This document shows positions 1,177 to 38,703 of a DNA stretch of 64,000 nt, in pieces. A program made the translations under genes and the position numbers. The stretch's first letter is position 1; the number at the start of each line of letters is the position of its first letter. The DNA is taken from assembly GCF_932294415.1 (NCBI RefSeq), contig NC_065541.1, positions 53,670,290-53,734,289 of the forward strand, read 5' to 3'. This stretch comes from Quercus robur. Its lineage: Eukaryota > Streptophyta > Magnoliopsida > Fagales > Fagaceae. The notes below the pieces were generated by a model. The model saw nothing but the letters and a program-made list of their open reading frames with translations, had not been told where the DNA came from and made no database searches.

Positions 1177-1230
<54 letters not shown>

Positions 1231-1493
1231 CGTTATGGGATTTTTAAAAAGATAAATTGTCAATCTACCTTTTTTTTCTTCTTACAAATGGTTTTATAAT
1301 AATATTAATTTAATGAAAATTATTGAGTCGTATAATATTGTTTAATGTTTCACATAATATGTCCTATTCTCTCTCTCTCCATGTGATGTGATTTTAAAAA
1401 AAAAAAATGCAGTGTCAATCTAACCTTTTTTTCTTACAAATGGTTTTAATAATTAATTTAATGAAAATTATTAAGTCGTATAATATTGCTTAG
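1177..1493. repeat. Tandem array with (CT)n-bearing units, left part (units 1 and 2a)
   Basis: Each unit has a (CT)n run, CCACGTKATGTGATTT, an A run, a TGTCAATCTACC block, TTACAATGGTTTTAATAAT, ATTGAGTCGTATAATATT and TTTCACATAATATATCC, then the next CT run. Unit 1 runs from about 1177 to 1370. Unit 2 starts at 1371 and is cut at 1493 by the inserted stack. It resumes at 16762. Unit 1 lies about 160 bp upstream of the URM1 start codon, so it may overlap its promoter. Confidence 0.75.
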
Positions 1494-1495
1494 TC

Positions 1496-1529
<34 letters not shown>

Positions 1530-1606
1530 GCTAAAATACAAAACTGATCCTCTAACTTTTTTCAGATTTCATTTCAATCCTCTAACTTTGTGTTTATTTA
1601 TTTTGA

Positions 1607-2133
1607 TGGTGTCTAAAAATGAGCTAACTCCATACTCGTCCATAGTGGTCGTCCAGAGAAGGAATAACAGAAAACGAGCTACTCGTCCTTGACATGCTTG
1701 TCCATAGAGGTTTTTGGACAAGTTCATCGCGCCAACTCTACAGCTTTTGGATGACCTTCCATCCATCATTGCTTATGACGAGCTCAATGACGGTTATAGA
1801 AAATAGGAGCATAAAATATAACCTCCATGGCAGTTATGGAGGTGTACTCCAAACTTTTCGAACTCCGTAAAGGTAGGGGAAGTTATTAAATAGATAACTG
1901 TTTCCTGAACCTATAAAAACACAAATCTCCGACAAACAAAGGTAAGTTTTTTCCCAGACACAATCCCTATAAGTTTGGAATTCCCTATTTCGGAATAAAA
2001 GACTAACTTTATCATCGGAGGGTTTGTGGACGGTCAACCCTGGTCTCCTCTGATCTTTCGTTTCTTCTTTTCCAGGCCCTCAAAATCATCGAAATTCATG
2101 CCATCCAGCCTACTGATTTTCTGAGTAATATCA
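1607..2133 (+). repeat. 5' LTR of the Tat-type element
   Basis: It starts TGGTGTCTAAAAATGAG and ends GAGTAATATCA, and is co-linear with the 3' LTR without gaps. CTATAAAAACAC near 1910 could be the TATA box region of the LTR promoter. Small ORFs inside are repeated in the other LTR and are not genes. Confidence 0.9.
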
Positions 2134-2152
2134 GTTGGCGCCGTCTGTGGGA
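2134..2152 (+). promoter_or_regulatory. Primer binding site region
   Basis: TTGGCGCCGTCTGTGGGAA directly follows the 5' LTR. TGGCGCC is the kind of sequence that pairs with a tRNA 3' end; the particular tRNA is not certain. Position is the main evidence. Confidence 0.6.
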
Positions 2153-2208
2153 AGATTTGTTAGACTTTATTGAGTTTTACAATTCCTTTCTTTGACAAAA
2201 AGGCTGCA

Positions 2209-3300
2209 ATGGTTCGGACTAGATTGAGGGCTACCAGCCCAGGCCATCAAGAAAGTAAGGATGCTTCTAGCCATCCCCATCGTGATCGTCAATCTGCACC
2301 TACCATGCAACCATCCTCTATTCATGTGCAATCCATGGTAGCCGCTATGGCAGAGTTAACTCGCCAGAACTAAGAACTGACAAGGGAGATTCATCTTAGG
2401 AGGCAACAACATGAGGCATATGGGTAAGAACAAGACTAGAGCCAGGGAGATGGAAGAAATGCTGCGCCCAAGAGTCAATCAAGGGGCACCACATCAAGAA
2501 GGGTGCCACACTTGGAGAGAGAGATTGACCAGATGAGGAAGGTGATGGATGAAATGAGGGAGAACACGAGAAGAACAAATCCTGTAGAGGATCTAGTTCA
2601 TCGCACAGATTCCCCTTTCACGGCTTCCATCAATGGTCATCCCTTGCCTCCAAAATTCAAGATGCCTTCCTTGGATTCATATGATGGAGCGCGTGACCCG
2701 TTTGATCACATTGCTACTTTTAAGACTACAATGCACCTTCAAGGGGTCCCAGATGAAATTATGTGTAAAGCATTCCCTACCACCCTCAAAGGTCCAACAC
2801 GAGTGTGGTTCAGTAAAATACCCCCGAATTCGGTAAGTTCTTTCGAAGAGTTAAGCAAGTTGTTCGTTAATAACTTCATTGGGGGACAGAGACACAAGCA
2901 TCCTTCGTCCAGCCTATTGACCATAGAACATGGGGAGAATGAAAGCCTGCGGTCCTTTATCACTCGTTTCAACAGGGCAGTCTTGACGGTAGATGAGGTG
3001 GATGATAAGCTACTACTGGCAGTCTTTCATAAAGGAGTTAATTCTGATTTATTCATCCACAATCTTTATGAGAATGAGCCCCAATCCATGGCTGAACTCG
3101 TCCATTCAGCCCAGAACTTTATGAATGCAGAAGACGCGATCATAGCCAAGAAGAGGAAGAGAGCGGTAAGAATGGAAGCAAACCCCATGCGCCACTCCGA
3201 GCAAGTCCATCGTCCAAAAAAGGGACGAACGGAAGATAAAAAAGGACCGGGATGGTAAGAGGGCTGGTCCTTCAGCACGGAATCAACAATACATGCCACT
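2209..3300 (+). pseudogene. gag part of the Tat-type element (fossil)
   Basis: The translated region carries the plant Retrotrans_gag capsid domain (for example DPFDHIATFKTTMHLQG and RVWFSKIPPNSVSSFEEL). This is the structural particle protein of the element. The region is broken and is described here only as a fossil part. Confidence 0.75.
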
Positions 3301-3325
3301 GAACGTTCTGCTCGAGTAGGTCCTT

Positions 3326-5282
3326 ATGCAAATCAAGGACGATTCTTCCTTGAAATGGCTAGAGAAAATGAAGGGAGATCCCAATAAGCACAATAGAAAC
3401 AAATATTGCCGCTTCCATGGAGACCATGGGCATGACACGAACAAATGTTATGATCTAAAACAGCAAATTAAAAATCTTATAAGACAAGGAAAGTTGAGAA
3501 ATTTCCTTGGACGAGAGCATAAGGATGAAAAGTTGAAAGGGAAGGTAGAAAAGTCGTCGCGCCCTCCGCTTGGAGAGATAAGAGTTATTATAGGAGGAAG
3601 CTCAGCTGGTCAGTCGTCCAAGTCCAGGAAGATGTATCTGAAAGTAGTGCAGAATGTTCAACTCTCTGGACGATCTCCAAGGACGACGACCACGGACGAG
3701 CAAGCAATCACATTCACAAACGCGGACGCTAAAAGAGTTCACCACCCCCATGATGATGCCATTGTTATTACTTTGCTAATTGCCGATTATACAACTAGAA
3801 GGGTATTGGTGGATAACAAAAGTTTAGCAGATATTTTATATTACCCTGCCTTTCAGCAAATGAGGCTCGGACGAGACCAACTTCGTCAAGTAAATTCACC
3901 CTTGGTAGGATTCGGTGGAATAAAGGTGCAGCTTGTAGGCACTGTCACATTACCTATCGTGGTGGGGGCATACCCACAACAGGTAGCCAAGGACGTGAAT
4001 TTCTTGGTGGTAGATTGTTCATTTTCCTACAATGCCATAATCGGAAGACCAAATTTAAATAGTTGGAAAGCAGTTACGTCTACTTACCACCTGTCAGTCA
4101 AATTTCCAACGGAGCATAGGATAGGACATGTTCAGCGAGATCAGCTGGCAGTAAGAGAGTGCTACCTGGCCATGTTGGCCATAGACGAGCAAGTTCAGAC
4201 GATGAATATTGAAGAAAAGAGAATGGTGGCTGAGCCCATTGAAGTGTTGGAAGGTATTTCTTTAGACGAGAAAAACCCTGAGAGGTGCACCAAGGTTGAA
4301 GCAGATTTAGAAGAGAGGATTAAGAAGGACCTCGTCTGTTTCTTGAGGAAAAGTATTGATGTATTTGCTTGGAGTCATGAGGACATGCCGGGTATAGACT
4401 CTAGTGTCATTACCCACCGTCTAAATGTGTATCCTTCCTCTAAGCCTGTACGATAGAAGAAAATGGTGTTTGCTCCTGAGAGAGACAATGCTATCAAAGA
4501 AAAGGTGCAGAAGTTAACCGTAGCGAAGTTCATTCGAGAAGTTTATTATCCAGATTGACTAGCCAATGTAGTAATGGTCAATAAGGCAAACAGTAAGTGG
4601 AGAATGTGTGTAGACTTTACTGATTTGAATAAGGCTTGCCCCAAAGACAGCTACTCATTGCCTCGCATTGACCAGTTGGTAAATTCCACTGCGGGACACA
4701 AGCTGCTTAGTTTTATGGATACTTTCTCCGGATATAATCAGATAAGGATGGACGACGCAGACCAAGAAAAGACATCCTCTGTCACAAGCCAAGGCTTATT
4801 CTGTTATAAGGTGATGTCTTTCGGTTTAAAGAACGCTGGGGCAACATATCAGAGGTTGGTTAACCACATGTTTTGTCCGCAAATTGGGTGGAATGTAGAA
4901 GTCTACGTAGATGACATGTTGGTGAAAAGTCAGAACGAGGGAAAGCATCTAGACGACCTGCAAGAAACGTTTGACACACTCAGGCAATATAACATGAGGT
5001 TGAACCCCAGCAAGTGTGCTTTCGAAGTGTCATCCGGGAAATTCCTGGGGTTCATGGTTTCACATAGGGGGATTGAAGCAAATCCAGACAATAGCCAGGC
5101 AATATTGAACATGGAACCTCCCCGGAATATCAAAGAAGTCCAATCTCTTACTGGACGAGTTGTTGCCCTCAACAGGTTTGCCTCTAAAGCTACTGATAAA
5201 TGTTTGCCATTTTTTAAGATACTTAAAAAGGCATTTGAATGGACAGACGAGTGTCAAAAAGCCTTCCAAGACTTGAAAATCT
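3326..5282 (+). pseudogene. Nucleocapsid knuckle, protease and reverse transcriptase part (fossil)
   Basis: In order: a zinc-knuckle-like block (CRFHGDHGHDTNKCYDLK), a retropepsin-like region near 3780-4050, and a reverse transcriptase with the YVDDMLVKS active-site box near 4900. The hAT transposon sits just after the RT palm and thumb region. It is a fossil part of the same polyprotein as the integrase part downstream. Confidence 0.8.
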
Positions 5283-5304
5283 ACCTCACTCATGGTTTTA
5301 AAAA

Positions 5305-5392
5305 CCGGTACGGTGAAAGAACCGAAAAATGAGCTAATTACCGGTTTTATGGTCGGACCGGGGTCCGACCGATGGTCGAACCGGTGACGTCA
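5305..5392. repeat. Left subterminal CCGGT/GGTCCGACC repeats of the hAT element
   Basis: Motifs AACCGGT, ACCGGTTTT, GGTCGGACCGGGGTCCGACC and CGAACCGGTGACG lie within 90 bp of the left end, several as palindromes. hAT transposases bind subterminal repeats through their BED finger, so these are likely binding sites. Confidence 0.5.
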
Positions 5393-6034
5393 TAAATAAT
5401 TTAATTAATATTTACTTAAATGATATAAATAATTAATAATTTTTTAATTTACTAAAAACATGATTAGGCTCATGACTAGCACATCACAGAGAGTTCACTG
5501 CCACACACATTTACAACATTTATCAACAGGTCCTGAAAGCCTATCATAAAATCCTCCTCCAATTACAGGGAAAAACACTAAAACAGTCAAGTAAAACAAA
5601 TATCCAATGGGAAGTTAGCAACAGTGTTCCTTATTGTTAAATAACAGAACTCCCACCAGAACAGTCAAGCCTTTGAAAAGCAGATACACATATTCTATTC
5701 AACAAACTCAACAATTTATACAAAAAGGTGGCTTGGCTTATCATTCTCCCAGCTTTGCTTCAAATCCACCCAAGTTGCCATCCAACCCCAACCACAAAAA
5801 TGTAGGACATCCAAAGGACATCCAAACAAACTCAACTCATGTACTTTTATCTATAGCTTTGTCTTTTAATAAAAAGATACACATAAATTCCACAACAATA
5901 AGTTCATTAGTCATTACATTTACATCCAAATGACAAATAACAAATAAGTTCATTACATCCAAATAGCAAATAAGTTTTAAAGTTTCAAAAAAACTACTAA
6001 GTGAAATCAATATCATCATCATGTGACCCAAGCC

Positions 6035-8974
6035 TCATTTGTTATGAAGAAAATTGAAATCAATATCATCATGTGAACCAAATGCTCCACCACTAGCATC
6101 ATTATCATCATCCTCATCTTCATCTTCTTCATCTTCAACATGAATAGGATTATTTTTATCTCTAAATCCGGGAGGAGCATCATCTTCATCACCAAATGAT
6201 TCCAAATTAATGTCATCATCATCCTCAATCACTTCATTGTCCATATCTATACAAATTCCAAAACCAAAGAACAACATCATTTCTCATAAATCATAAATAG
6301 TCTAATTAAAATATGCAACTAGGCAAAAAATTGTTATAAGCTAACCTCTTTGTACATGGCTAGAAGATCCTTCTTCAATTCGATAGGCTCCCTCTTCATA
6401 TAATGCATTCTCTATCTCCTCATGATCAAGAAATGGAGGTTCCTCATCTTCCACTACCCAAAATTCAGTTTTATCGATACTTGCATAATCAATAGGATCA
6501 AAATTGAACTTCTTCCTTTTGACTCTATATCATAAGATGAACATAATTAATAATTTAATTAGTAACCAAATCACTTATATTTCACAATCACAAAGAACCC
6601 ACTTGACCAAATCAGTGAATCACTCATATTTTCTCACAAAAACATTGAAACAAAGAGATTATATAATATATACATTTCTTTCAATTGGTAGTTATAATGA
6701 ACAAACACAAGATCATTAAGTTGTTGATGCTCCAATCTATTTCTTCTTTTGGTATGTATTTGTTCAAAAACACTTCAATTCCGCTCACATCCCGAAGAGG
6801 CAGCTGTTTGGCTAAGGATCCGAATTGCAAACTTTTGTAAGGTTGGAGCACAAGATCCAAACAACTTCCACCACTCATCTAAGTTCCATATAAAACACAA
6901 AACAAAAATACAATGAATCAATAAACACAGCTATACTTATCCCAAAAATATAAAAAAGAGCTATGATCTTTAAAACATATTTTCATTTTATTATTAGCTA
7001 AAGTAAACATTATCTTACCCGGATGAGATGTCTTGGCTAATTCTTGAGTAAGTTGGGTTCCAAAAGTTTGTTCACGCTCTCGAAATAGCCTTAATTCCTC
7101 CACCAACTTCAACCGACCAACTGAAACTTTTGATTCAATAACATCTGTCACGGCCAATTGTGTCTCTAGCCTCTTATTAAGAATGGATGAGTCATATTGG
7201 AATGCAGGATTCAACCAATAAGCAGCAGCATGAATATCTCTATAGAATTGATTATCCCAACAATCCTTGATAATATTAACATAAGGCTCCCATAGTCTCT
7301 TCTTGTCCTTGAATTTTTTTTTTTGATTCCATCAATTACTTTATACATGCCATCATATACATAACCCATAGTTGGTTTTTCATCAGAATCAACAATGCGT
7401 AATAAACGAATCAATGGTGACATAATATGCACAATGACATGACAATCATTCCAAAATTGATTGTCAAGAATAATTTTCACCACTGCCTTTGCTTTCTTAT
7501 CTTTTGCATATCTTGATTCAACATAAAATTTTCTAGTCACCAATGCTTGTAAGTCATGCTTATGTTCCTTAAGACTCTCTAAGGCAATGAAAGTAGTAGC
7601 AAACCTAGTTGGCCCTGGACACACAATTTTCGTCCAATTTTTTCTAGTCCTCAACCAAGCTTGCAAAGCCACATGGTTATAGATGAACGTTGTGATCTTG
7701 AATGCACGCTTTGCAAGTTTAGCTACATGATCCATCTTCCTAATCTCCTTAAAAATTAGGTTTAGGCAATGTGCTGCACAAGGTGACCAACTAGTGTTCC
7801 TATATTTTCCACACAAAATTCTTCCAGCAGCTACATAATTTGCAGCATTATCAGTGACCAAATGTACTATATTTGCAGGCCCAACCCAACTAACAATTTC
7901 ATCAAACAAGTTACTCAAATTAATAGCATCTTTAACCAAGTTAGAAGTATCAACAAAACGTATAAAAATAATTCCCTTAGGACAATAGACAAGAAAATTA
8001 ATCAATGTTCTATACCTAGTATCAGTCCACCCATTAGCCATTATTGTACAACCAGTGTCAGCCCAATATGAACAATGAGAATCAACAATCAATTGGACTT
8101 CTCTTTTTGCGTCTCTCAACAAAGGCACTCGAAGGGCATGATAATTTGAGCCTCTATATCCATGACCATAAGAAGCTACAGCATTGAACATAGGTTGATA
8201 ATAACTAGAATTCATAGCATTAATTGGAATGCAAGCATCATGCATCCATCTTGCTACAGCCATATCAACGCTCCATTTCTTTTCTTTGCCAGCAAGCACA
8301 CTTTTAATAGACGGTTGAGCTCCTGATGTTGTTCTAGGAGCAAAGTAATTACCAATGTCACCAACCTTTCTCTTGCCAAGATTGGATCTTGGTGGAAAAC
8401 TACTAATACCACTTCTATTTCCCCTACCTAACCCCCTACCTCTAGGAGTAATTTCTTGGACATCTTAAAATTTTGGTGAGTCCTCTAATGGTGAATAATT
8501 AGATGCTTCTTGATCCTTTTTTGTTTATTCTTTAGATTTTGAAAATTCTTTCAAATTCTCAACCATTTGAAGCCTAACATCATAAGGTACACCTATACAT
8601 GCAGCCACATCACCTTTAATTCCAGCTAGATGTCTTTTCATCCTATTGATACCCCCTCCTTTATAAGTTTTCCCACAATGTATACATCTATAACTACTTT
8701 TTCTGTCTTTCAACTCTTCAGTTACATGATCCCATGCTGCGGGATCACATTTCGCTCTCACAGATGAAGAATTAGCATTAGACCCGATTGTAGAAGCATG
8801 TTCATTAGATGGTACAGAGGCGGACTCCATTTCACTCAACAATTTCAGACTGGCAGCAACCATTTTATCAACAAATAAATTCATCAACACAACATACACA
8901 ATCAATAGTATAATACTCTGTAAACTATATTTCACAAACAATAATGCTCTGTGAATCAAACCCACAACATACAC
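6035..8974 (-). pseudogene. hAT transposase (BED finger, DUF659, hAT dimerization), decayed
   Basis: The minus-strand product has, in order, a BED zinc finger at about 8770-8540 (YRCIHCGKTYKGGGINRMKR), a DUF659/RNase H-like core at 8299-7330 with GWTD and VTDNAANY, and the C-terminal hAT dimerization region at 6878-6730 (EWWKLFGSCAPTLQKFAIRI), ending in a very acidic tail near 6280-6090. A GT-AG intron lies at about 6879-7019. Decay: two stops in the linker between BED and core (8450-8530), a frameshift near the T run at 7312-7321, and Trp to stop in the conserved ERNW motif at about 6775. It cannot make a full transposase. Confidence 0.88.
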
Positions 8975-9667
8975 AAAATCACAAATAAACTAAAATGCAA
9001 TTGTAAACTAATAATTGAAGTTACCACTTACTAGTGAAGTCACAGAAGGAGAACCTGAGAACATGAATTGAGAATCTGAGCTGAAGCCGAGAGAAATGAA
9101 AAAAAGAAAAAGAAAAAAAAAGAACAGAGCAAATGATTAAAATCAAGTAATCAAAATCAAAATAAATAAATAAAAAAGAATATTAATTATTAGTTTATTA
9201 CCTGATGAAGCCGAGAGAAATGAAAGAAAAAAAAAAAAAAAACAGAACCGAGAAAATGAAAAAGAAAATCAAAATAAAAAGAAAAGAACATTACCGGTGC
9301 CGCTGTGCGTGACGCAGAGAGTGCAGAGAGCGAGAGCGAGAGCGAGGGCGAGAGCGGGCTTGGAAAAAAGGGAAAAAAATAAAACCTCAGCTTGACCGAT
9401 CTGAGGGAGAGTGTGCTGGTGCCGGTGCCGCTGTGCTTGACTGCTTGAGCTTGACCGATTGTGAGATGAGAGAGTTGAGATTTGAGAGCTTGGATCGTGA
9501 GGCTGAGGCTGAGTGAGGCTTAGGCAGTGAGGCTGAGGTAGAGTGATCGTGAGTGAGATGAGAGAGTCTGAGGGTGAAGACTTTAGGCTTAGGGTTAGTT
9601 TTTAGGACTTTAATGGAAATTCTAAGGACCAAAACGACGTAGCTTTCCCAGAAAAGTCAAAAAAATC
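8975..9667. other. Untranslated upstream part of the hAT element
   Basis: It holds A-rich runs (9100-9270) and a GAGAGCGAG-rich stretch with GAGGCTGAGG and GAGTGAGATGAGAGAG repeats (9320-9570). This is probably the promoter and leader of the transposase gene. The open frames here are low-complexity artefacts. Confidence 0.4.
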
Positions 9668-9835
9668 CCAACCGGTCATTAACCGGTTCGACCTCCGATT
9701 TTTTCGGTTCTTAGGTTGAACTGGACGGTTTTTACTGTTTGCTAGTTTTTAAGTCATTTCTGGTTTTGTATCATAATCGGATTGGATTAGAGGCCGATTC
9801 TCGGTTGAACCAGTCGGACCGGCCGGTCTTGTTTA
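9668..9835. repeat. Right subterminal CCGGT/GGTTCGACC repeats of the hAT element
   Basis: AACCGGTCATTAACCGGTTC, CGACCTCCG, TCGGTTGAACCAGTCGG and ACCGGCCGGTC cluster near the right end and mirror the left cluster. They are likely transposase binding sites. Confidence 0.5.
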
Positions 9836-9858
9836 GTTTTTAAAACTATGACCTCACT

Positions 9859-12001
9859 ACGGCTCCTTTACTAAGTCCATCCGTGTTGGGAGAGAAGTTG
9901 TACTTGTACTTAGCAGATACCCCACATGTCGTTAGTTTAGCATTGATATGGGAGGAAGGAAGAGTGCAAAAGCTCGTGTACTATACAAGTAGACCACTAA
10001 GGGGAGTGGAAGGACGATATCTGCTAATACAGAAGCTGGCTTTTGTATTGATAACGGCTTCCAGTAAGCTAAGGCATTACTTCCAAGCTCATGTCATCAA
10101 TATCATTACCGATCATCCGCTCAAGAAAGCAACGAACAAGCTAGAAGCTGCAAGACGACTGATCCAATGGACTGTCGAGTTTAGTGAATTTGATATCAGA
10201 TATCAACTAAGGCATGCAATAAAAGCTCAAGCCCTGGCAGATTTCATTGCAAAGTTCGCTCCGAGTTATGAAGACTTAAGCGAGGTAGAAAATAGAAAGA
10301 AATGGATCATCCATGTGGATGGATCATCTACACAACATGCAAGAGGAATAGGAGTTGTTTTATTATCCCCGAAGGGAGATAAATTGAAGCACAAGGTTCG
10401 TCTGCAATATCAAACAACCAACAATGAAGCTAAGTATGAAGCCCTTATTAAAGGGTTGGAGTTGGCTAAATCTGTAAAAGCGAAATCGATACTCATCCTA
10501 TGAGACTCTCAGCTAGTCATAGGCCAAGTAAATGGGACATGTGAAGCCAAGAAGAACGAATGAAGAAGTACCTTAATAAGGTGGTATGCCTTATAAAGAA
10601 ATTTAAGGAAGTTGATTTTATTCAGATCCCGAGAGAAGAAAATATGGAAGCAGATACTTTAGCAAAAGAAGCCTCAACGAGAGAAGTAATGAACGAATTT
10701 GACGAAATTCAATACCTGCCTAGCATAGACTTTCCAGAGGTGCAACAGATAGAGGGTGAAGAAAATTGGATGACTCCAATAGTATCATACTTGAAGGACG
10801 GAAAGCTTCCAAAAGGAAAAGATAAGGCCAGGAAGCTCAGACTCAGATCAGCCAGATACGTCCTCATGAACGAGGTATTATACAAAAGGAGTTTTTCACA
10901 ACCTTATCTGAGGTGTTTAGCTACGGACGAGGCTAACTATGTATTGAGGGAGGTTCATGAAGGAGCATGTTGCAATCACTCAGGAGCCAGATCACTTATT
11001 CACAAAGTCGTCTGTGCAGGCTATTACTGGCCAAACATGCAAGCTGATGCCAAGGCATATGTCAAGGTCTATGATCAATGCCAACGATTTAGTAATGTCC
11101 CCAGACAACCATCAGAATATCTCACCCCGATGATGGCCCCATGGCCTTTTGCACAATGGGGGCTAGACAACTTGGGTTCCTTTCCACTTGGGATGAAGTA
11201 GATGAAATTTCTGGTGGTAGGTATTGATTATTTCACCAAATGGGTAGAGGCGGAACCCTTAGCAAGTATCACGCAACAAAATGTCAAGAGTTTCATCTGG
11301 AAGAACATTGTGTGCAAGTTTGGGGTGCCCAAAGTATTAATGTCTGACAACGGACGACAATTTGACAATGCACTTTTCAGGGACTTTTGTAAACACTTCG
11401 GAATTCAAAATCATTATTCCTCACCTGCCCATCCCTAAGCAAACGGCCAGGCTGAAGTTGCAAACTGATCCTTGTTGAAAATCATCAAGACTCGACTTGA
11501 GGGGGCAAAGAGAGTATGGCTAGATGAGCTACCAGGTGTTCTATGGGCGTACAGGACGATGGTGAAAACCCCAACGGGGGAAACTCCTTTCAAGCTAGCC
11601 TATGGAAGCGAAGTAGTCATACCTACAGAAGTGCACATGGCCAACCACAGGGTGACGATGTATCAGGATAAGGATAACGAGGAGCAACTCTGTTTAAACC
11701 TCGATCTAATAGATGAGGTAAGGACAGACGCAGAACATAGGACGGTAAGGTATAAAAACCTAATGTCTAGGCAATATGATGCAATGGTGAAGCCGAGGTG
11801 ATTCAACATAGGAAACCTCGTCCTAAAAAAGGTTTCTTTGGCAACCAAGAACCCGGCTCATGGGAAATTGGGGCCTAATTGGGAAGGACCCTACAGAGTT
11901 ATAAACTATAAAAGGCAAGGATCCTACTACTTGGAGGCCCTGGACGGGAGAAAATTGGAGCATTCTTGGAATGTTGAGCACCTGAGGAGGTACTATCAAT
12001 A
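9859..12001 (+). pseudogene. RNase H, archaeal-type RNase H and integrase part (fossil)
   Basis: The part resumes right after the hAT insertion. It holds the RT-linked RNase H (YYTSRPLRGVEGRY), a second RNase H beginning WIIHVDGSSTQHARGIG, an HHCC integrase zinc finger, and the integrase core (GIDYFTKWVEAEPL and GVPKVLMSDNGRQFDN). The doubled RNase H points to the Tat lineage. It is broken. Confidence 0.8.
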
Positions 12002-12950
12002 GAAGTGCTAGCCTTGATGAGTGTTACTATGGACGAGCTTAGAGCCTGTTTGTCTACTTATGTTCTACTTATGTTTAATAATGCTGCTACTTTATTATTT
12101 ATGTTGTGGTTATGAACAAAGTTATGGATTTGTTTGTACTTATTAAACTCCCTGGAAGGCATTTGCTTCTAAGTATATGCCTCGTTTGTGAACAATATTT
12201 ATAACATGCACATAATGTTGTGTGAATCCTAGTTTCTATGCTATTTTTCGTTCAAATTAGTTCATAAGAAGGCTAAGAGCCCAAGATGAGTAAATTCTCT
12301 GGACATGGAGATGTAACATCTGTAAACTCTCCTAACGAAGGTATACTCGTCCACATCATGGACGAATAGAAGCCTTAAACTTGGAGTGAAAATGTCCAAA
12401 TAATGGACAAGGTAAAGCCCATAATACCTTAGTCCAATACATGGATGAGGAGAAAATTGAGCAAGCGCTCAATCTATGGACGAGAGAAAAGTTGGGCCTT
12501 CATGAAACGTGAAAAATCAGCTAAGTCTAAGGACGAGTAATGCTAGTAATTATTATTTCACAAACGAATTACACTTGGTGAAATTCAAAATAATATAAAT
12601 GAATAATGGACGAGCTGAGCTTGAAGTCTATTGTTTATAAAGATAAAGCTGATAAAAGAAAAATAACATTCATTCAGATTGTTCAAGGGCGGACAACCAA
12701 CGTCCAAACACCCTTACGAAAGTAAAGTCAACTGTTGATAGCTCGTCCTAAAACTATGGACGAGCTTAGTATACTTGAGTTACATTAAAAGGTCCAAAGA
12801 CCAAGGACCAAACAAAACTCAAAAGAAAAATATATATAAGAATACAAAGGTAACCAAAATATTAAAAGCTCGTCTTCAGGCAGGTGGGGCATCGGTATTT
12901 TGGTCGTCCTGATGTGGCTGAGTAGTAGCGTCGTCCTCTATATTGACGTC
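12002..12950. other. Non-coding spacer of the Tat-type element
   Basis: This stretch between integrase and the antisense ORFs has no credible coding region. It is rich in short GGACGAG and CTCGTCC words, which also occur in the LTRs and in the antisense ORF region. Confidence 0.5.
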
Positions 12951-12962
12951 TTCTGAACTCGT

Positions 12963-13568
12963 CTAGAGGAGGGAGCTTGTAGGAGCACCACTAAGATTGA
13001 GCTTGATAGAACTGAAGTCAATGTCAGGGAAGTTCTCCATGGCGTCCATCCTGAAGTCCTCAAACCCAACTGCATAGTTGGTATCCAGTAAGTCCGTAAA
13101 CTGCTTGGACACCTTAAACTCCGCAACTGTGTCATCCTTGGCTTTCTTAAGAAGAGCAGTCAGCTCGTCATTCCTCTTCTGAAAGTGGTTAAGACGAGTG
13201 TCCTTCTCTACGATATCAGTTTTCAGCTCTTCAATTTGGTTCTGCAGCTCCTTTACCTCTTCCTTGGCCTTCGTAGCTATCTCAGCCCACCGTTTACTCT
13301 CGTCTTTCACCTCCTTAATCCTCCTCTCTAGCAAGACCCTCGTCTTGTCCAAATCAGTTGCTTGCCTAAACGCGGTGATGAACTTGGACATTGCCTGAGT
13401 CAAAGTTTTGTTAGAGCAAAAATACACGTCTACCTTGCTAACAAGACGAGACATATAAAAAAAAGGGAAAAGAAAAAGCATGCATACCTTGAAAAGGTCA
13501 TGAACACCAGAATGCTCAAAGTCCTTTAATGACATGTTGTAGCAAGTCGTCACGTCCGCATCTGTCAC
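12963..13568 (-). pseudogene. Antisense ORF of the Tat-type element: coiled-coil protein
   Basis: About 200 residues read on the strand opposite to gag-pol. A central stretch of roughly 90 residues rich in K, E, L and R (for example RRIKEVKDESKRWAEIATKA) is a likely coiled coil, followed by an acidic tail. Extra antisense ORFs between integrase and the 3' LTR are known in Tat-lineage elements; their function is not established. It may be a downstream exon of the same antisense unit as 14302-15069. Confidence 0.5.
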
Positions 13569-13591
13569 AGCCGTCCCAAACCTTTCCCAAG

Positions 13592-13844
13592 CTAGATCCT
13601 CATTCCCAATAAGGTTTTGAGGTACCTGTTAGGAAGGCTGAGACGAGGAAGGCGCCTTGGTTGTGGACGGGACCTGCATAGGAGGATCCTTGAGCTCTGG
13701 ATCATCAAGGATCTGAACATCCCCAGGCTCATGGATAGAGATGGACGAAGTGGACTGAATGTTCTTAGGCTTAGATGACCTATGCTTAGCCTTTTTCTCC
13801 TTGCGCCTGCTTGGGAGGTTCCCCAAATCAACCCCTAAGGACAA
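13592..13844 (-). pseudogene. Antisense basic segment between the two larger antisense ORFs
   Basis: A short Lys/Arg- and Ser-rich reading (for example RRKEKKAKHRSSKPKN) lies between the globular and coiled-coil antisense ORFs on the same strand. It could be a nuclear-targeting linker exon, but two overlapping frames are open here and I cannot choose between them. Confidence 0.3.
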
Positions 13845-14301
13845 GCGCTTTCTTTTCTCACCTGCTAATGGATGAGGTTGGGACGGTAACTCCTACCCAG
13901 CTGCCTCGTTCACCACTTCTTTACCCTTGTTCTCCTTTATTGTAGCCATTCCTGAAAAGAAAGATGTCAAAAAAAAAAAAAAAGAGGGAGGGACAACAAG
14001 AAAACTTACGTCTACGGACGATGGCTTCAACGGACGGTTTAGGACCTAAGCCCTAGATGGCAAGACGTTGGAGACTTACTAGAGAATGAAAAGCACTGTT
14101 AGTGTATAGATGAGCCTTCTGAATTCACTCAATGTAAAACCTGCTTAAATGAGGTCGTCTAGCACCTATAAAAAAAGAGAGAAGGAAAATTATTAGGTAA
14201 CTACCTACAAGAATAAATATAATAAATAACAAAGTCACAGCTATAAGCATACCTTCAGGACGAAGGTTCCCTACCTCTCCTATGTAGGGAGGAAATGGGT
14301 C

Positions 14302-15069
14302 TTAGGCAACCTCAAGGCGTCCAGCCCAAAAACCTGAGACGAAGAAGAACTCCGTCTTCCAGTTCCTATCTGAGGTAACTATGGACTTAATTAATCTATA
14401 ATCTTTCCCTCTGGCTGTAAATTGATAGAAGCCAAGGGATTGATTAATTTCGGAGGGCTTATAACAGTAGAGGAACTCGTCCACGGTAAGAGGACGATTC
14501 CCCTCAAACACCTCCCTCCACAAAACTTGCATAGAGACGATTAACCTCCATGCATTGGGATTGAATTGACAGACACCTAAACCTAACTTAGTAAGTAGTT
14601 CTCTAGCAAAAGCATTTAAAGATAACCTAAGTCCACCTAAAAGATAGGCTTTATAGATACCTATCCCAAAATGTGGCTGACAGCACCACTCCCCACGAAT
14701 CGCTAACCTAGGTTTAAGGTCATCTGGGATTTGATACCATTTCTTAAGTAAATCCAATCTCCTATCGTCCGTCTTGGAAGCTACTCCTATAGCACAACTA
14801 TACACTACCTCAACCTCGTCCTGACCTGTGGACGAGGGAGCACTCGTACCAGCCTTGGATCCAAACTTAGTCCTCGTCCTAAGTCCTTTCAGGAGAACCT
14901 CTAAAGGAACCCCAGGAACACCGGACTTGTACTCGTCCGTGGTGTTTCCTCCACTACTACTATTGCTATTACTACTATCACTAAAGCCACTAAAACTACT
15001 AGGATCATGATATTCGTCTATGGCCTTATCCACCCTATTGCTAGACGTGGAAAGAACGGTCTCAAACAT
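14302..15069 (-). pseudogene. Antisense ORF of the Tat-type element: globular protein of unknown role
   Basis: About 255 residues on the strand opposite to gag-pol. A Ser/Asn-rich N-terminal part is followed by a region rich in W and aromatic residues (IRGEWCCQPHFGIGIYKAYL and NAWRLIVSMQVLWREVF), typical of proteins often labelled 'putative plant transposon protein' and encoded by such antisense ORFs. It starts about 370 bp inside the 3' LTR, so its transcript could begin near or in that LTR. Function unknown. Confidence 0.55.
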
Positions 15070-15418
15070 TTTTAAGAAAACTTAAAATCTGAGGACGAGA
15101 ATGAAAAAAGTACCTGAATCTAGACAAGGAAACTAAGGACGAGAGGACATTTCTAGACGAGACACTAAGACGAGGAAGCTAAAGGAAGGAAATTTCAGAA
15201 ATGTGAAGGATACCGGAGGAATTCTACTATTTATAGGCCGTAAGCTTAGGTATCTGAAACGACACAACCAATCAAAAAGTGACACGTGGCATGCTCCTCG
15301 AAAAAAATAACTCGACGCGACTGGTTACCAATGAGATTGTGACACATGGCACACCTAATTGTTGACATTAAATACACATTATGAGAATAACATTAAACTT
15401 ATCCTAGAGACGACCCAT

Positions 15419-15436
15419 GGACAAGGGGGCAATTAA
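15419..15436 (+). promoter_or_regulatory. Polypurine tract
   Basis: GGACAAGGGGGCAATTAA lies immediately before the 3' LTR. A G-rich purine run in this place primes second-strand synthesis in LTR elements. Confidence 0.7.
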
Positions 15437-15963
15437 TGGTGTCTAAAAATGAGCCAACTCCATACTCGTCCATAGTGGTCGTCCAGAGAAGGAATAACAG
15501 AAAACGAGCTACTCGTCCTTGACACGCTCGTCCATAAAGGTTTTTGGATGAGTTCATCACGCCAACTCTACAGCTTTTGGATGACCTTCCGTCCATCATT
15601 GCTTATGACGAGCTCAACGACGGTTATAGAAAATAGGAGCATAAAATATAACCTCCATGGCAGTTATGGAGGTGTACTCTAAACTTTCCGGACTCCGTAA
15701 AGGTAAGGGAAGTTATTAAATAGATAATCATTTCCTAAACCTATAAAAAAACGAATCTCTGACAAACAAAGGTAAGTTTTTTCCCAGACACAATCCCCAT
15801 AAGTTTGGAATTCCCTATTTCGAAATAAAAGACTAACTTTATCATCGAAGGGTTTGTGGCCGGTCAACCCTGGTCTTCTCTGATCTTTCGTTTCTTCTTT
15901 TCCAGGCCCTTAAAATCATCGAAATCCGTACCATCTAGCCTACTGATTTTCTGAGTGATATCA
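15437..15963 (+). repeat. 3' LTR of the Tat-type element
   Basis: 527 bp, TGGTGTCTAAAAATGAG to GAGTGATATCA, aligned to the 5' LTR without gaps and with about 31 differences by eye. The flank after it does not repeat the five bases before the 5' LTR. Confidence 0.9.
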
Positions 15964-16761
15964 CATTTCAGTCTTCTAAGTTTTAGATTTATTTAATTAA
16001 GGCCTTTTCGTTAACTTTTGTTAAAATTTTTGGAAAAAAAATCTGGAAAATGTTTTTCAATCATTAATTGAATTTTTTTTTAATTTAAAAAATTTGAAGA
16101 AAAATTTATAAAATTGAAAAAATAACCACAACATATAACAAAAGTTGATAGAAAAAATTTAATTGAATAAACTTGAAAGTTAGAGGACTGAAATGAAATC
16201 TGAAGAAACTTAAAGGGTCAGTTTTGCATTTTACCATATATATTAATACATAAAGCTCAGAGAAAGTTTAATTAGAATTTGAAATTAGAATCCAACTTTG
16301 CGCCATGTGTCTAATTTATGTAGGGATCACATCATAATTATCCACTTAAGTTTTTTAATCTTTGTTCCAAGTGAGTTAATGAGTGCAAAATACTAAGAAT
16401 CTAATATTAATGAACTATAAAATTAAAAAAAAAAAAAAAATCACCTATACTCAATACAAATCATCACACATCAAAGATCACCACACATTCTATCTTATTA
16501 AAAAAAAAAATATCATAAGTAGTATTAAATTTGGGTAAGACTTTTAATATATGACTAATTACATTTACTTTAAAAAAAAAAATTTGATTAATTATTTATA
16601 TTTTTATGATATAAATTGTGTTTAATTTTAAATGTATTCATACATATGCACATGCTACACGCTATTTTTTATTATAATAATTTGACTAATTATATATTTT
16701 TATAATAAAAATTGTGTTTAATTTTAAATGCATCTATGCGTTTGCATGGATTACATACTAG

Positions 16762-16850
16762 TTTCACATAATATATCCTACTCTTTTTCTCTCTCTCTCT
16801 CTCTCCATGTCATGTGATGTGATTTTAAAAAAAAAAAAAAAAACATTGTC
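16762..16850. repeat. Tandem array, middle part (units 2b and 3a)
   Basis: TTTCACATAATATATCCTAC, a CT run and CCATGTCATGTGATGTGATT, then an A run and CATTGTC. It continues unit 2 from 1493 and is cut by the LINE at 16851. Confidence 0.75.
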
Positions 16851-16932
16851 TTTTTTTTTTTGGTAAGAAAGGGAAGATAATTTAATTAACTACTAATAAG
16901 TCTGTTACAAAAAAAGCCAGCCTCATCAAGAG

Positions 16933-19900
16933 CTAGCAATCTGACCACCACAAGCGGAGGTTCAACAAAACAACAAAAGAGGAAACAACACTTGATCCCA
17001 ATCTAGCTAGTGCGTCTGCACATTGATTGGCTTCCCGATACACATGCTGTATCCGTTTGTTAGGGATTGTTCTGTACAGGCTCCTGCAATCAGACAGTAA
17101 AGGTTCCATTAACAAATTTGGCTTATCACTAGATAACATATGAACAACACTTGAAGCATCTAGCTCAACAATCAAGTTACAAAGCCCAAATTCCTTAGCA
17201 ATGGTGAGGCCATCTCTGAGAGCCCATAATTCTGCAATAAAGCTATTAGTAGTCCCCAAAGCTCGGTTGTATCCTTTGATCTAGTGACCAAGGTGATCTT
17301 GAATCACACCTCCCTTACCTACTCTGCCAGGATTGCCTAAGGCAGAGCCATCCATGTTGAGTTTCGCCCACCCAAGAGGAGGTTTCTGCCAAGCTACGAG
17401 AACACAGATTTTGGATGGATGGATTTTGGTTTTCATACCAATGGAGAAATATTCAGCACTGCTCTGAACACATCTCTTGACAAGGTTCAAGTTGTCCCGC
17501 CTAGTTCTAAAAACAACTTCATTTCTGTGAATCCATATTTGCCAAATGCTCATGATGAAAATAATTTTCCACGGAATGCCCAGGAACTTAGAGCTGACTT
17601 CCATTTTGCAATTCACAAATAGCCACTCCCCTAATGGTTTACCAAAAGAGTCCACAAGACAGAGAGGAAAATCCAATTTTTGCCAAAGTTCCATGGCTAT
17701 CTTACATCCCCGGAGCAATTGATCTATAGATTCAATATCTGCATTACAAATGGGGTAGTAGATACTGAGGTTTAAACCCCTTGAACCCAGGATTGTGCAT
17801 GTGGGGAGGCTGTTGTGAAGACAGAGCCATAAGAAGAATAGAATTTTTGGAGGTGCATCCAACTTCCATATCCACGATACAGTATCAGTCCTTGGGTTCA
17901 ATGGATTTAAATCTCTTGCTAAGAGATAAGTAGACCTTAAAGAGAACCAGCCATCTTTATAAAAAGCCCAGGCAAGGGAGTCTTATGTGTTTGGATCATT
18001 TAAGAATGGAATGGCCTTAATCTCTTCAATAAGGTCATTAGGTAACTCAAAGGAGAGATTATGCAAAAACCAACCAAGAGAGACACTATGGCATTGATGT
18101 ACTGTTAAACATTCTTCATTTCTTGCAAGTGGACCATGGATGTGGCTTCGAAGGGTGCCCTTGGGAAGCTAGAAGTCCTGCCAAAACTTCACAGATTTAC
18201 CATTTCCAATAGTCCATTTGAGGCCTCTCACATAAACCGAACCCCCAACCTTACATGCAGCCCAAATTTTTGAGCAAGGCCTATTCCTGCCCTCCTCAAT
18301 CAACCTATTGGGAGTTAGGTACTTCTTTGACAATAGCTGCGCCCAAGGAGACTCATTCTCATTTGCAATCCTCCAACAAAGTTTTGCAAGTAGGGGAAAA
18401 CCTTACATGCCAGCCTTACATGCCAGCCAACTTATTTTGGACTCTTTCGATCACAAAATTAAAAGCATCACCATTCCTACCTTGGTGTAGTAGGGGAAAA
18501 CCCAAGTATCTTCCCAAATTTTGGGTTGCAACCATTCCAAGCTTTCTGCAGATAGTATTTTTCTTCCTACCAGAAACATTAGGTGAAAAAAGGATCCGCG
18601 ACTTGTTAACATTTATTCTTTGACCAGCCAAATTGCAAAAATTGTCCAAAACTTCCAAGATTGCATCACAGTTCTTGGAGTTTGCCTTGGCAAACAGGAT
18701 CAAATCATCCGCATAAAAGATATAAGAAAAACTCGGACCATTTCTGGATGCCTTGATCTTATCCCATCTCTTTTCCTCGCATAAGGTAGAGATATGAGCT
18801 CCCAAGAATTCCATACAAAGCAAAAATAGGTAGGGGGAGATGGGATCTCCTTGCCTAATACCCCTAGAGGGGTGGAATGAGTCTAGCTTGTTACCATTAA
18901 ACAGAATTGCTGTTGATGTAGACGTCACTCAGCTCATAATCAGGTTGACAATGTTTGGGGGGAAGCCAAAATGATCCAAGACCATTTTTATGAAGCTCCA
19001 TTCCAATCTGTCATATGCCTTTTCAAGATCAATTTTTACTACCATGAACCCCTCCCTCCCTTTTCTATTCTTCAAGGAGTGGATAAGCTCTTCAGCAATG
19101 ATGATATTGTCTGAACCTCTTCTACCAGCAAGGAAGGCAGATTGCATGGGAGAAATTAAGGAAGGGAGAAGGGGCTTCAGTCTGTGGACCAGAATCTTTG
19201 TGACAATCTTGTAGATGGTAGTACAAAGGCTAATGGGTCTATAGTGGCTCACCAGCTCCGGGCCCATCTGCTTTGGTATAAGTGCAATTAAAGTTTGGTT
19301 AAGATAGGCAGGGATTTTTTGGGTAGCAAAGATCTCTTTCACTTCCCTTTTGACCGAGTCTCCCACTAAGAGCCAGAACCTTTGGAAGAATTCGGCATGG
19401 AAGCCATCAATACCAGGTGCTTTAAAAGGTTTCATGGATTTAAGGGCATCCCAGATCTCAACATCAGAGGGAGGTTGGGCTAAAATAAGAGTTTCTTCCT
19501 CAGCCAAAGAAGCACACCAGTTAGAATCCCATGCTGGGCTTAAAGGGCAATAGACTTGCTCAGATTGATATAATTTATGGAAATAGTCCACAAAAATTCT
19601 TTTCACTTCTACAGTATCATGGACCCACTCCCCATGGGCATTTTGAATGCTGGTGATTCTATTCTTACTTCGTCTCACAATGGTAGACAGATGAAAGTAA
19701 GAAGTGTTTCGTTCACCGTTGATAATCCAGTTAGTCCTGGCCTTCATAGCCCATAATTCTTCTTCAAGCTCAAGGATATTATTGTACTCATCAGAGAGTT
19801 GATTCTGGAGATTGATAAGGAAGGTGCAAGGTCTGTTGGCCATAGCTTTCTGGATTCCCACCAACCTAGCCATAAGTCTCTTCTTCTTGGCAAAAACATT

Positions 19901-20775
19901 ACCAAAAACTTCTCTATTCCAATCCTTGGCTTTAGAAACAAACACAGAGATGGCATCAGCCAAATTGACCTGTTGCCCCGACCAAGCATCTCTTACAATA
20001 CCCGGAAAATCATTGTGGCTAAGCCATATAGATTGGAATTTGAAAGGCCTATTTAGTTCCTCTCTCACGGAAGGCTTCAGCTTAAGCAGCAAGGGGTAAT
20101 GATCTAAATTTACTCTGGCCAAATGTGTGACACTTGCTTCATCAAAAAAGGCCTTCCAGGCCGGGTTGGCCTAACATCTGTCCAGCCTACATTGGATCAA
20201 ATCTTCAACACCCCTCTTATTTGTCCAAGTGAATTTTGGGCCTGAGAACCCAAGGTCAAGCATGTGGCATGTGTCCATACAGTCTTGGATGGCTCTAACC
20301 CGTCTCTGGCTAATGTGGTTGCCACTAAATTTCTCTTCCTCAGTTATAACTTCATTAAAGTCACCCATAAGTGCCCAAGGACGGTCATGCATATAAGCTA
20401 ACATTTTAAGATTTTCCCAAAGAATGCATCTCTCCTCAAACCTAGGACTAGCATAAATAGCACTAATAAGCCAGTTAAAAGTTTGACATCTTACCCGGAC
20501 AATGGCATGGATTTCTTGTTCTGTGGTCGCCAACTCCTCCACCTGCACCAAATCAGAACGCCATAAAAGCCATATTCCACCAGCAAAGCCAATAGTGTCA
20601 GTGACCACCGCACCATCAAAAGGAAGGGTCTCAATAATTTCATTGGCTCTCGCACCACTTAGCCTAGTTTCCGTAATGACCATGATAATGAGGTTATGCC
20701 AATCAACTAAATCCATCACCGTTTCCTAAAGAGCGGTTTCATTGCGCCTCTGCAATTCCAGACCAAAACATTCAT
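16933..20775 (-). pseudogene. LINE ORF2 (endonuclease, reverse transcriptase, zf-RVT, RNase H), decayed
   Basis: It starts MNVLVWNCRGA at 20775. Endonuclease motifs are TETRLSG, MGDFNEV and LDHYPLLL. RT motifs are KAPGIDGFHAEFF, VVKIDLEKAYDRLEW, GIRQGDPISPYLFLLCME and FYADDLILF. The zf-RVT region is at 17900-17700 and RNase H at 17360-16940 (MDGSALGNPGRVG, ELWALRDGL). Damage: a one-base frameshift near 20720, Trp to stop at 20171-20173, a stop near 18927, Trp to stop near 17280, and a missing segment near 18400-18430, where RT thumb sequence (KLAG) runs directly into the zf-RVT approach (LLAKLCWR homologue). Confidence 0.85.
18404..18429. repeat. 13-bp tandem duplication at a LINE internal deletion junction
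   Basis: CTTACATGCCAGC occurs twice in a row. It lies exactly where about 70-80 residues normally present between the RT thumb and zf-RVT region are missing. This looks like filler or slippage at a deletion junction. Confidence 0.55.
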
Positions 20776-21770
20776 TTTTGGATATAGGTGGGTAGCAGTT
20801 TCAGAATGAGACTCAAAGGAGCTATCCGCTGTGTCCCTCAACCTCCATGCTTCCATCAGTTCCCTCTTCCCCTTCATGCTTCCTCGAAAAAGAGTGATTG
20901 AGTGTTTGATTATCCACATCCTCGCCTGGGTTGCTTTGATGAGAATGGTGACTTTCATCTCTGGCTCCGCAAACTGAAGTAGTTTCACTTGATGAAGGTT
21001 GCCCCACATCATGCTTTCCACAGGTATTTCCTGAAGAAACTTTCTCACCGTTATCTCCAAGTGAATCCCCTCTATCTCTGCTTCTGAGAGCAATTTTTCC
21101 GAAGGGTGCACATTTGATCTTGTTGCAAATGGATCCGAGCTAATCTGAGGAGAGATTTGGACTGCAGGTCGGTCGGAGAGGAACCTCCACCATGGGTTTG
21201 GTGTGAGGGCCCAGGCTTCGTCTTTCATGGGCAGGTACCCCAGCCTCTTGCTCACCTCTGTGAGAGGGAACAAATTCTTCCAAGCTAACATCAACTCCAA
21301 GTCAAACCAACCCCATATCTCCGTCTAGTCCTGCCTGATCCATTTGATCGTTTCCTCCCCCATCGGAATAACTTTGCCTTGATAGAAAATTGCCCAGCTA
21401 TTTGTGGTCGTCATTTTTGTGAACTCTCATAGCAGTATCTCTTATCTTTGGTTTAAGTAAAGAAACCTTAGACGGTGCACTCGCTGGGCTAGAAAAAATT
21501 AGAGGTATTGGGCTCGGCCCAGGTGCACCCTCATAAGATTGGCTCTCTCCAAAGGAAAAAATGGGTTCGTAGTTGCTTGTCCCCACCTCATATCGTTGGG
21601 ATTGAACCAAATGCCTTCCCTGTTTAGTTGCCTTCGCGCGCGATTTCACAGTCAATGAGTCAGATTTCACATCCATCCTTTCTTGGGACTGGCCTAGCAG
21701 TCTTATCAACCATTCTCTGTGACCCCAATGAAGCCGGAGATGGAACTTTTCTCTTGCCATCTTTTTTGCT

Positions 21771-22850
21771 TCACTCATCCACTCTAGGTGACCTTTTACC
21801 ACCTTGCCCCTGAGAGGCATCAGACATTTGACTCATTGTCTGAGTTTGGTTACTTATCTTAGCCTTGCTCATCGGCTTCCGTCTTGTGACCACCATCCAG
21901 TCGCCATATTCCTTTGATTTTTCATCCACCTTGCTGCTAGCCTCATTGTTTTCTCTCTGTGGTAACGGGGATTCCTTTTGGCTTAGAGTTGTCTCCTTAT
22001 GTATATCCTTAATGGTATATGGACATTCCTCCATCCTATGCCCAATCCTACCACAGGAGAAGCAGATAGAGTTAATCCCTTCATATAAAATAGTTTGGGT
22101 CCGCTTACCAATGGTTAGAGATTTTGCCAAAGGTTTGTCTAAATTGACTTGTAAGCATATGCGAGCAAAACGTCCCCTAATTCCACTCGCTGTGTGTGCG
22201 TCAATGCAAAGCACAGGCCCTATCGCTTGCCCGATTCTCCGGAGAACAGCAGGGTCATAATATTCAATAGGCAATTCAGGTAGGCGCACCCAAACTGCTA
22301 CAGATGAAAACGTAGCTTCTGAGGCACGAAACTCTGGTTCCCATTGTCTAATAGCAAGAAATTGCTGTCCAATAAACCATGGCCCTCCTTTGAGTACCCT
22401 GTTTACATCCTCTTCCAAGTCAAATTTGATTAAAAAATAATCTGAACCCAGATCAATACAATCCATCTTTCCACACGGATTCCACAGGCTTCGGATTTTG
22501 GGGTATAAATAATTATACCCTACCTTTCTCCCAAAAGCCTTAATGATTAAAGCCTTTCTCCAAACCGCCCTTATACGTGCTATTTCTTCTCTAGACAAGC
22601 ATACCACCAAATTTCCTTTAGTACCATCCCCAGTCTCTGAGTCTGATTGAACATCTTCATCTATGTCATTGGACAACCCAAAAGCCCCTGGGATCTCCCC
22701 AATGAGTTTGTCTTTATAGCTTGTAGTGTTCTTAAAAGGGTTCTCTTGATTTTCCTCAGTTTCTACGTGACTTTCTTTGAACTTTTTTGTGTTGCGGGTT
22801 AAAGCATCCTCTTCTTCCTCGGTGCACTTCAGAGTTTCTCTCTCCATCAT
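21771..22850 (-). pseudogene. LINE ORF1 protein (DUF4283 and CCHC zinc knuckle)
   Basis: 359 codons from MMERETLKCTEEEEDAL. The N-terminal third is acidic; a DUF4283 region follows (YPKIRSLWNPCGKMDCIDLG and GGPWFIGQQFLAIRQWEPEF), then a zinc knuckle CFSCGRIGHRMEEC near residue 270. This is the RNA-binding particle protein of plant L1 elements. Reading continues past 21771 only in other frames (21398-21820, 20790-21300), so the C-terminal tail is probably frameshifted. Confidence 0.8.
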
Positions 22851-22880
22851 ACTTTGAGAATTGTCCTAGCCGACTAGTAG

Positions 22881-23132
22881 TGTCTACCTTTTCTTGTCCT
22901 ACAATGGTTTTAATAATATTAATTCAATCAAAATTATCGAGTTGTATAACATTATTTAAAGTTTCATATAATATATTCTTCTCTCTCTCTCTCTCTCTCT
23001 CCACGTGATATGATTTTTTTTAAAATACGTTGTCAACCTACCTTTTCCTGTCTTACAATGGTTTTAATAATATTAATTCAATCAAAATTATTGAGTCGTA
23101 TAACATTACTTAAAGTTTCACATAATATATCC

Positions 23133-23212
<80 letters not shown>

Positions 23213-23345
23213 GTTATGTGATTTAAAAAAAAAAATACATTGCCAATCTACCTTTTCTTGTCTTACAATGGTTTTAATAATATTAATTCAATCAAAATTA
23301 TTGAGTTGTGTAACATTATTTAAAGTTTCACATAATATATCCTAT
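22881..23345. repeat. Tandem array, right part (units 3b, 4 and 5)
   Basis: Three further passes of TACAATGGTTTTAATAATAT, ATTGAGTCGTATAACATTA, TTTCACATAATATATCC and the CT run. The CT run of unit 5 is about 80 bp (23134-23208). Together with the two left parts the array has about five units of 150-200 bp, the difference being mostly CT run length. Confidence 0.75.
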
Positions 23346-37459: not shown

Positions 37460-38672
37460 ATAATAATAGGTAAAGTTAAGAAAAAATTCAATTAGATTTC
37501 AAATTAGAATTAAATTAGAGTTTAATTTTACGCTGTGCGCGCCGGAAATGAGGCTGTTGGATTTAACCTCACTTGGGCTCACAACTTACTTATAAGGTGA
37601 GCTTAGGATTTCCTACTTTAGGTCGTTCTCGGCACAGAGACTCAACATAGTTTATTCTCTCTCTTTTTGAATCGCTGTTTTGCTCTCTTCTCTATTTCTT
37701 TTGTGAACTTCCCAACCCCCCTTTTTCCTTCCCCAACTTCTCCTATTTATAGCTCTAAATTAGTGGAGAGATCATGATTACTGCCATAGTTAGTGCAATT
37801 AAAGGTCCAATATTATCTGTTGTAAGTGGATGTTTAGGTGAGAGTGGAATGTAGCGATTGTGGTCTTGGAACTTGGTTCCAACTCAAGCGAATATGCTCG
37901 GTAGAGATGTTTCCTAGAAACTGCCGAGCATGCTATGGTATGTTCAGATTTCAGTCTTTCTTTATTATTCGAGCATTTTACGCCGAGCAGTGGTTAGGTG
38001 ACGAGATTTGGACTTGTAGTTTATGAGGGTAGAATAAAAAGGGATTGAAAAATTGGGCTAAGCTATTGGGCCTGAATCCAAGGCCCAATTGGATCTAGGC
38101 ACCTCAGTGCCGTACATACACCCTGTATCCCATCTAATCTAAGTTTTTAAATTTTTGTACTAAGTGAGTTAATTCATTAATATAAAAATGGGATTTCAAT
38201 CAGAGTTTAATTTTGTGACATGTGTCCCATCTAATCTAAGTTTTTTAATTTTTGTGTCAAATGAGTTAATTTAGTGTAAAAAAATGAGAAGTCCAATATA
38301 AGTAAATCATAAAAAATATAATTTTTGAATGATTTTATATTTATGAATTTTTTTTGTATAACTAAAAATAATTCAAGTTTATAAGTCATATATATATAAA
38401 TAGCCAAAGTTAAGAGAAAATCCAATTAAATTCTAAACTGGAGTCTAATTTTGCGTTATGTGTCTCACCTAATTTTTAAATTTATGTTTCAAGTGAATTA
38501 TTAGGTGCAAAAATTAAAGAATTTAAAATTCAATTAGATTCTAAATTGAATTTTAATTGGAGTTCAATTTTGCGCATGTGTTCCATCTATTTTTTTAAAA
38601 AAAATTTCATGACAAGTAAATTATTGAATGCAAAAATAGAAAAGTCTAGATCTAATTAGATTCTATATTATA

Positions 38673-38703
<31 letters not shown>

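Follow-up and report, generated by a model that had tools for sequence, protein, structure and literature searches.

How did a small tandem array in the genome of Quercus robur, ~0.87 kb long without its inserts, come to carry 21.3 kb (15,268 + 6,032 nucleotides, nt) of inserted sequence, and in what order did the pieces arrive? The array occupies positions 1177-23345 of the window, the 64,000-nt stretch of DNA analysed here (C37:53670290-53734289), and all genome comparisons were made within the window's own genome (786 Mb, 42 contigs). It is cut twice; unit 3 holds a long interspersed nuclear element (LINE), and unit 2 holds a chain of four inserts which are, from outside to inside, a Helitron-like element, a fold-back miniature inverted-repeat transposable element (MITE), a long terminal repeat (LTR) retrotransposon and a hAT transposon (Table 1). 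We propose that the nest was built by successive independent insertions of five element classes through their ordinary mechanisms, a reading to which we give a probability of roughly 93%. Array units that rejoin across the inserts, target site duplications at three layers (9 bp for the fold-back, 5 bp with one mismatch for the LTR element and 8 bp for the hAT) and sibling host copies in the same genome that are free of the fold-back, the LTR element or the hAT all support this proposal. An earlier note on this DNA had put forward the same nesting, with ~21 kb of insertions in an array of ~0.9 kb. Every element that it named was located in the sequence and by repeat comparison, the sums given above agree with its estimate, and its observation of a nest is correct.

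Table 1. Parts of the nest, by position in the window (ORF, open reading frame; MULE, Mutator-like element)
Feature	Positions	Strand	Remarks
Host array	1177-23345	+	Five units (135-145 nt each) with (CT)n tracts between them
Helitron-like element, non-autonomous, interrupted	1494-16761	+	TC...CTAG, 3' hairpin; own sequence 1494-1528 plus 16237-16761, with the 9-nt target repeat included in both parts
Left 9-bp target repeat of fold-back, TATATATTA	1520-1528	+	Right copy 16237-16245
MULE-type fold-back MITE, interrupted	1529-16236	+	Own parts 1529-1603 and 15964-16236, ~343 nt
LTR retrotransposon, Tat lineage (Retand-like in appearance), interrupted by hAT	1604-15963	+	
5' LTR	1604-2133	+	530 nt; preceded by TATTT (1599-1603)
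hAT transposon	5291-9850	-	Decayed transposase (BED, DUF659, dimerisation domain); flanked by 8-bp target repeats
Antisense ORF, weak Transposase_28 (TRP28) match	14302-15081	-	Between pol and 3' LTR
3' LTR	15434-15963	+	530 nt; followed by CATTT (15964-15968)
L1-type LINE, near full length, decayed	16851-~22882	-	3' (poly-A) end at left; splits unit 3

Units 1, 4 and 5 of the host array are intact, and inserts break unit 2 at 1493/16762 and unit 3 at 16850/22883. With the split units rejoined, all ten unit pairs align at 85-93% identity with global scores of 101 to 179, and the best score of a Markov shuffle control (100 per unit pair) was never above -12. The earlier note had named the alignment of the array units on the two sides as a test of the nest and had unit 2 reading through from 1493 to 16762; the pairs align far above the shuffles, and unit 2 does rejoin at that point, the Helitron-like element itself being what lies between. 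The left flank of the array (100-1170) matches only itself in the genome.

The outermost insert of unit 2 belongs to a large family, of which the best 40 places were scored out of 1296 candidates and five siblings were fetched. Helitrons end in 3' CTRR, preceded closely by a hairpin and followed by T. Here the 3' end reads CTAG followed by T in the window copy and in four of the five siblings (L096-L099), the last 63 nt fold into a hairpin at -12.3 kcal/mol, and the flanks of L098 and L099 are alike. An (AT)n tract runs straight into the body of the element, with no fold-back between them, in L095 and L097-L099, again four of the five. Related Helitron-like pieces form a cluster at 38124-39195 of the window (16236-16322 and 38764-38852 match at 81%). 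Near 38760 one such piece ends in CTAA and the next starts with TCTATATATA, head to tail, and siblings occur as multi-copy head-to-tail series at C35:42623102-42625230, C35:29962641-29965056 and C41:31682634-31684135.

The fold-back sits in the (AT) tract of the Helitron-like element and has arms of 63 nt that are 87% complementary and no coding capacity; one of the arms holds the LTR element. In its family, scored at the best 40 places out of 1392 first-look candidates, motifs identified both ends in 20 of 29 loci, and 10 of these 20 show a perfect 9-bp repeat at the same boundaries. Since the script accepted repeats of 8-10 bp and up to 4 nt of shift, agreement on one setting outweighs single fits. 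The window copy follows the family rule, its two copies of TATATATTA matching at 9/9 positions. Because of these 9-bp target repeats the element is assigned to the MULE-type MITEs, and a separate class for it was rejected. The site in the fold-back at which the LTR element stands is uninterrupted in siblings such as L010 and L017. Two further siblings, L028 and L029 (C37:67778861-67780119), are separated by ~1 kb and flanked by identical 9-mers, which suggests a local duplication that carried the MITE.

The domains of the LTR element stand in gypsy order: gag, reverse transcriptase (RT), ribonuclease H (RNase H), a second RNase H-like match and integrase, the last represented by its zinc-binding domain only. 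RVT_3 matches in two ORF pieces follow RT_RNaseH and precede integrase; a second RNase H is a mark of the Tat lineage. Two antisense ORFs precede the 3' LTR, and one of them has a Transposase_28 match of 23.4 bits, below the curated cut-off of 26.2. On antisense-ORF layout, the Tat type given in the earlier note can be refined, since the element looks like a member of the Retand branch. Five sibling pairs, paired by eye, all start with TG, 3 nt ahead of the start formerly given at 1607, which is rejected because it leaves TTTGA and CATTT at the edges. The 5-bp repeats of these siblings are perfect in four pairs and agree at 4 of 5 letters in the fifth. Without the hAT the window element measures 9.8 kb; the span of the sibling pairs is 8.8 to 10.2 kb in four cases and 3.5 kb in the fifth. 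Between the two LTRs there are 30 transitions and 2 transversions, 32 differences in all, a Kimura two-parameter (K2P) divergence of 0.064. The Helitron and fold-back insertions must be at least as old as this divergence implies, and the hAT at most as old. Absolute dates of 2.5, 4.6 and 14.6 million years, from three rates, are not relied on because 30 of the 32 differences are transitions. Such a proportion is what heavy cytosine methylation would give, and LTR ages obtained here would be inflated.

The hAT, innermost of the four, lies in the pol gene of the LTR element. It is bordered by a perfect 8-bp target repeat (ACCTCACT, 5283-5290 and 9851-9858) and ends in the terminal inverted repeats CATGGTTTTAAAAAC / CATAGTTTTAAAAAC. 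Its minus strand has matches to zf-BED and DUF659 and to Dimer_Tnp_hAT in two pieces, one at 32.5 bits, above the cut-off, and the next at 13.7 bits, below it. When its flanks (250 + 250 nt) are compared with four sibling stretches of the LTR element, three align without a gap over 498, 498 and 473 nt at 89-90% identity. Among 48 genome rows matching the first 600 nt of the hAT, 38, its own included, begin at the first base; L091 and L092, the two siblings with flanking sequence shown there, differ from the window in that flank. Several rows match only the first 167 nt, at 91-93%, suggesting a short deletion derivative of the family.

The insert of unit 3 carries the domains of a LINE in order: DUF4283, a zinc knuckle just below the cut-off, endonuclease, RT and zf-RVT. 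Its poly-A end is common to siblings, L004 and L007 among them. Against 6.24 and 6.26 kb for two siblings on C5, the window copy, at 6.03 kb, is near full length. One of the C5 siblings has a 15-nt repeat, GCTACATGATGGTGG, on both sides; LINE target duplications are ~7-20 bp long. A second LINE 3' end, at 41279-41545 on the minus strand, is 68% identical to 16846-17109.

It is proposed that the (CT)n-linked array was present first and that a Helitron, a rolling-circle element, would then have entered its unit 2. Next, a MULE-type fold-back MITE would have entered the (AT) tract of the Helitron, duplicating 9 bp of it; one arm of the MITE would then have taken in a Tat/Retand-type LTR retrotransposon (5-bp duplication), and the pol gene of the retrotransposon a hAT (8-bp duplication). 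On a separate branch, an L1-type LINE would have entered unit 3. The anatomy, the direct repeats, the rejoining of host units and the uninterrupted siblings at the fold-back, LTR and hAT levels are observations; we infer the transposition mechanisms from family membership and established knowledge, and any absolute age would be an inference as well. The clear order of events claimed in the earlier note holds for the four-insert chain and not for the LINE, whose place relative to the chain is not fixed because it lies in another array unit. The earlier coordinates are good to within 3 nt. Both ends of the hAT were kept, with the 8-bp direct repeat just outside them, as were the end of the LTR element (15963), the start of the fold-back (1529) and the start of the LINE (16851). 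The LTR element now begins at 1604 rather than 1607, the fold-back gains 1 nt at its end (formerly 16235), the LINE ends at ~22882 rather than 22880, and the Helitron-like element moves 1 nt inward at each end, from 1493-16762.

Several observations weigh against this history. The repeat of the LTR element, TATTT / CATTT, agrees at 4 of 5 letters. The LINE edges show no target repeat of normal length, at most TGTC, and unit 3 lacks 2-4 nt, which can be read either as the 4-bp repeat TGTC in a unit 4 nt shorter or as no repeat with 2 nt lost; the L1 assignment is carried by the domains, and the insertion is atypical. Canonical Helitrons start with 5' TC and insert between A and T. Here the 5' TC recurs in one of the four siblings that reach the 5' end (L098, and not L095, L097 or L099) and in the window copy at 38760, the host site is G^T, and 2-3 nt of unit 2 are missing at the join. 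With TC in one of four siblings and a G^T site, no boundary of the nest is less secure than the 5' limit of the Helitron-like element; the split of unit 2 stands independently of it. For the fold-back, the ends went unrecognised in 9 of the 29 siblings, 4 of the 10 non-perfect fits are A or T runs or near-runs, and the window repeat is an AT-rich 9-mer within an (AT) tract, though this 9-mer occurs only 4 times in the window on both strands, once in the right part of the Helitron-like element. The 8-mer ACCTCACT of the hAT is found 6 times on the plus strand of the window, and the fourth sibling stretch (L080) has no match to the hAT flanks. The two layers without a clean insertion signature, namely the mismatched LTR repeat and the LINE without a normal repeat, could point to a nest formed in part by rearrangement, in which recombination between dispersed copies joined element halves and some layer never inserted. 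However, the host halves match across the inserts in unit 2, unit 3, the fold-back arms and the pol gene, and one C/T change is all that separates the two 5-bp repeats of the LTR element, at a place where siblings have CATTT, so that we regard such an origin as highly improbable.

The outer host deserves the same scrutiny. Of the 28 genome rows matched by a 96-nt part of the array unit, 4 lie at this locus; the other 24, all elsewhere, are partial matches (76-88%), and no full-length match to the query was found outside this locus. The 24 prove to be ends of a ~450-nt self-complementary element, as seen in five longer stretches, and (AT)n or (CT)n adjoins this element in 6 of 8 shorter ones. 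Since ~60 nt of each unit are similar to one end of a different fold-back MITE, itself flanked by microsatellites, the outer host is partly transposon-derived. The array might then be a stack of microsatellite-targeted MITE remnants, its outermost layer consisting of insertions too, in the manner of SaTar, whose microsatellite-flanked MULE MITEs form end-to-end stacks (PMC5907723). Against this, SaTar stacks are described as made of unrelated elements, whereas the units here, set between (CT)n tracts, are all five of one family and one orientation. The likeness to the MITE end covers only ~60 of ~136 nt, no terminal inverted repeat was found in the unit by eye, and the restriction of the whole 96-nt query to this locus leans toward a single tandem series. 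We thus consider a stack unlikely; because the five units share one family and one orientation, it is simpler to derive them from a MITE end that was duplicated in tandem along with its (CT)n tract. That microsatellites rather than chance shaped the locus, with an array made from MITE ends drawn to (CT)n, the next MITE drawn to the (AT)n of the Helitron and six transposon-derived layers in all, appears to us something of a long shot.

The nest is a tidy, well-preserved case of a well-known kind, since chromosome 3B of wheat is reported to hold 30,199 nested insertions of up to 8 layers (PMC4290129). As there, elements lie within elements and the order of events can be read; unlike the wheat nests, every layer here belongs to a different class (Helitron, MITE, LTR element, hAT), with a small tandem array as outer host and a genome of ~0.8 Gb. 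The Retand lineage of Tat has a long region from pol to the 3' LTR with antisense ORFs, one of them TRP28-like (PMC11963269). The window element likewise has antisense ORFs before its 3' LTR and differs in being decayed, in carrying a hAT in pol and in a TRP28 match below the curated cut-off. MuTAnT and SaTar, of Medicago and guayule, are MULE MITEs that target microsatellites (PMC4486113 and PMC5907723). The window fold-back resembles them as a short fold-back with a duplication in the 9-10-bp range and in its place in an (AT) tract, whereas its siblings sit in AT-rich 9-mers mostly outside TA microsatellites. In the literature consulted on nesting, Helitrons, MITEs and microsatellites, all general papers, we met no like nest, and we make no claim that none is in print. 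Nothing in the analysis points to a function for the nest as a whole, and it leaves ideas on how transposons work unchanged; its value is that of a clean, readable stratigraphy and a possible test case for the annotation of nested elements.

An Rfam scan of the window gave 0 matches. Outside the nest, the window contains two plus-strand ORFs with domain matches, a TCP transcription factor domain at 43012-44076 (PF03634, E 2.9e-26) and an Atx10homo_assoc domain at 53932-54849 (PF09759, E 1.1e-32). Long imperfect palindromes at 48576-49037 and 50249-50454, 67% and 69% self-complementary, are probably further fold-back MITEs.

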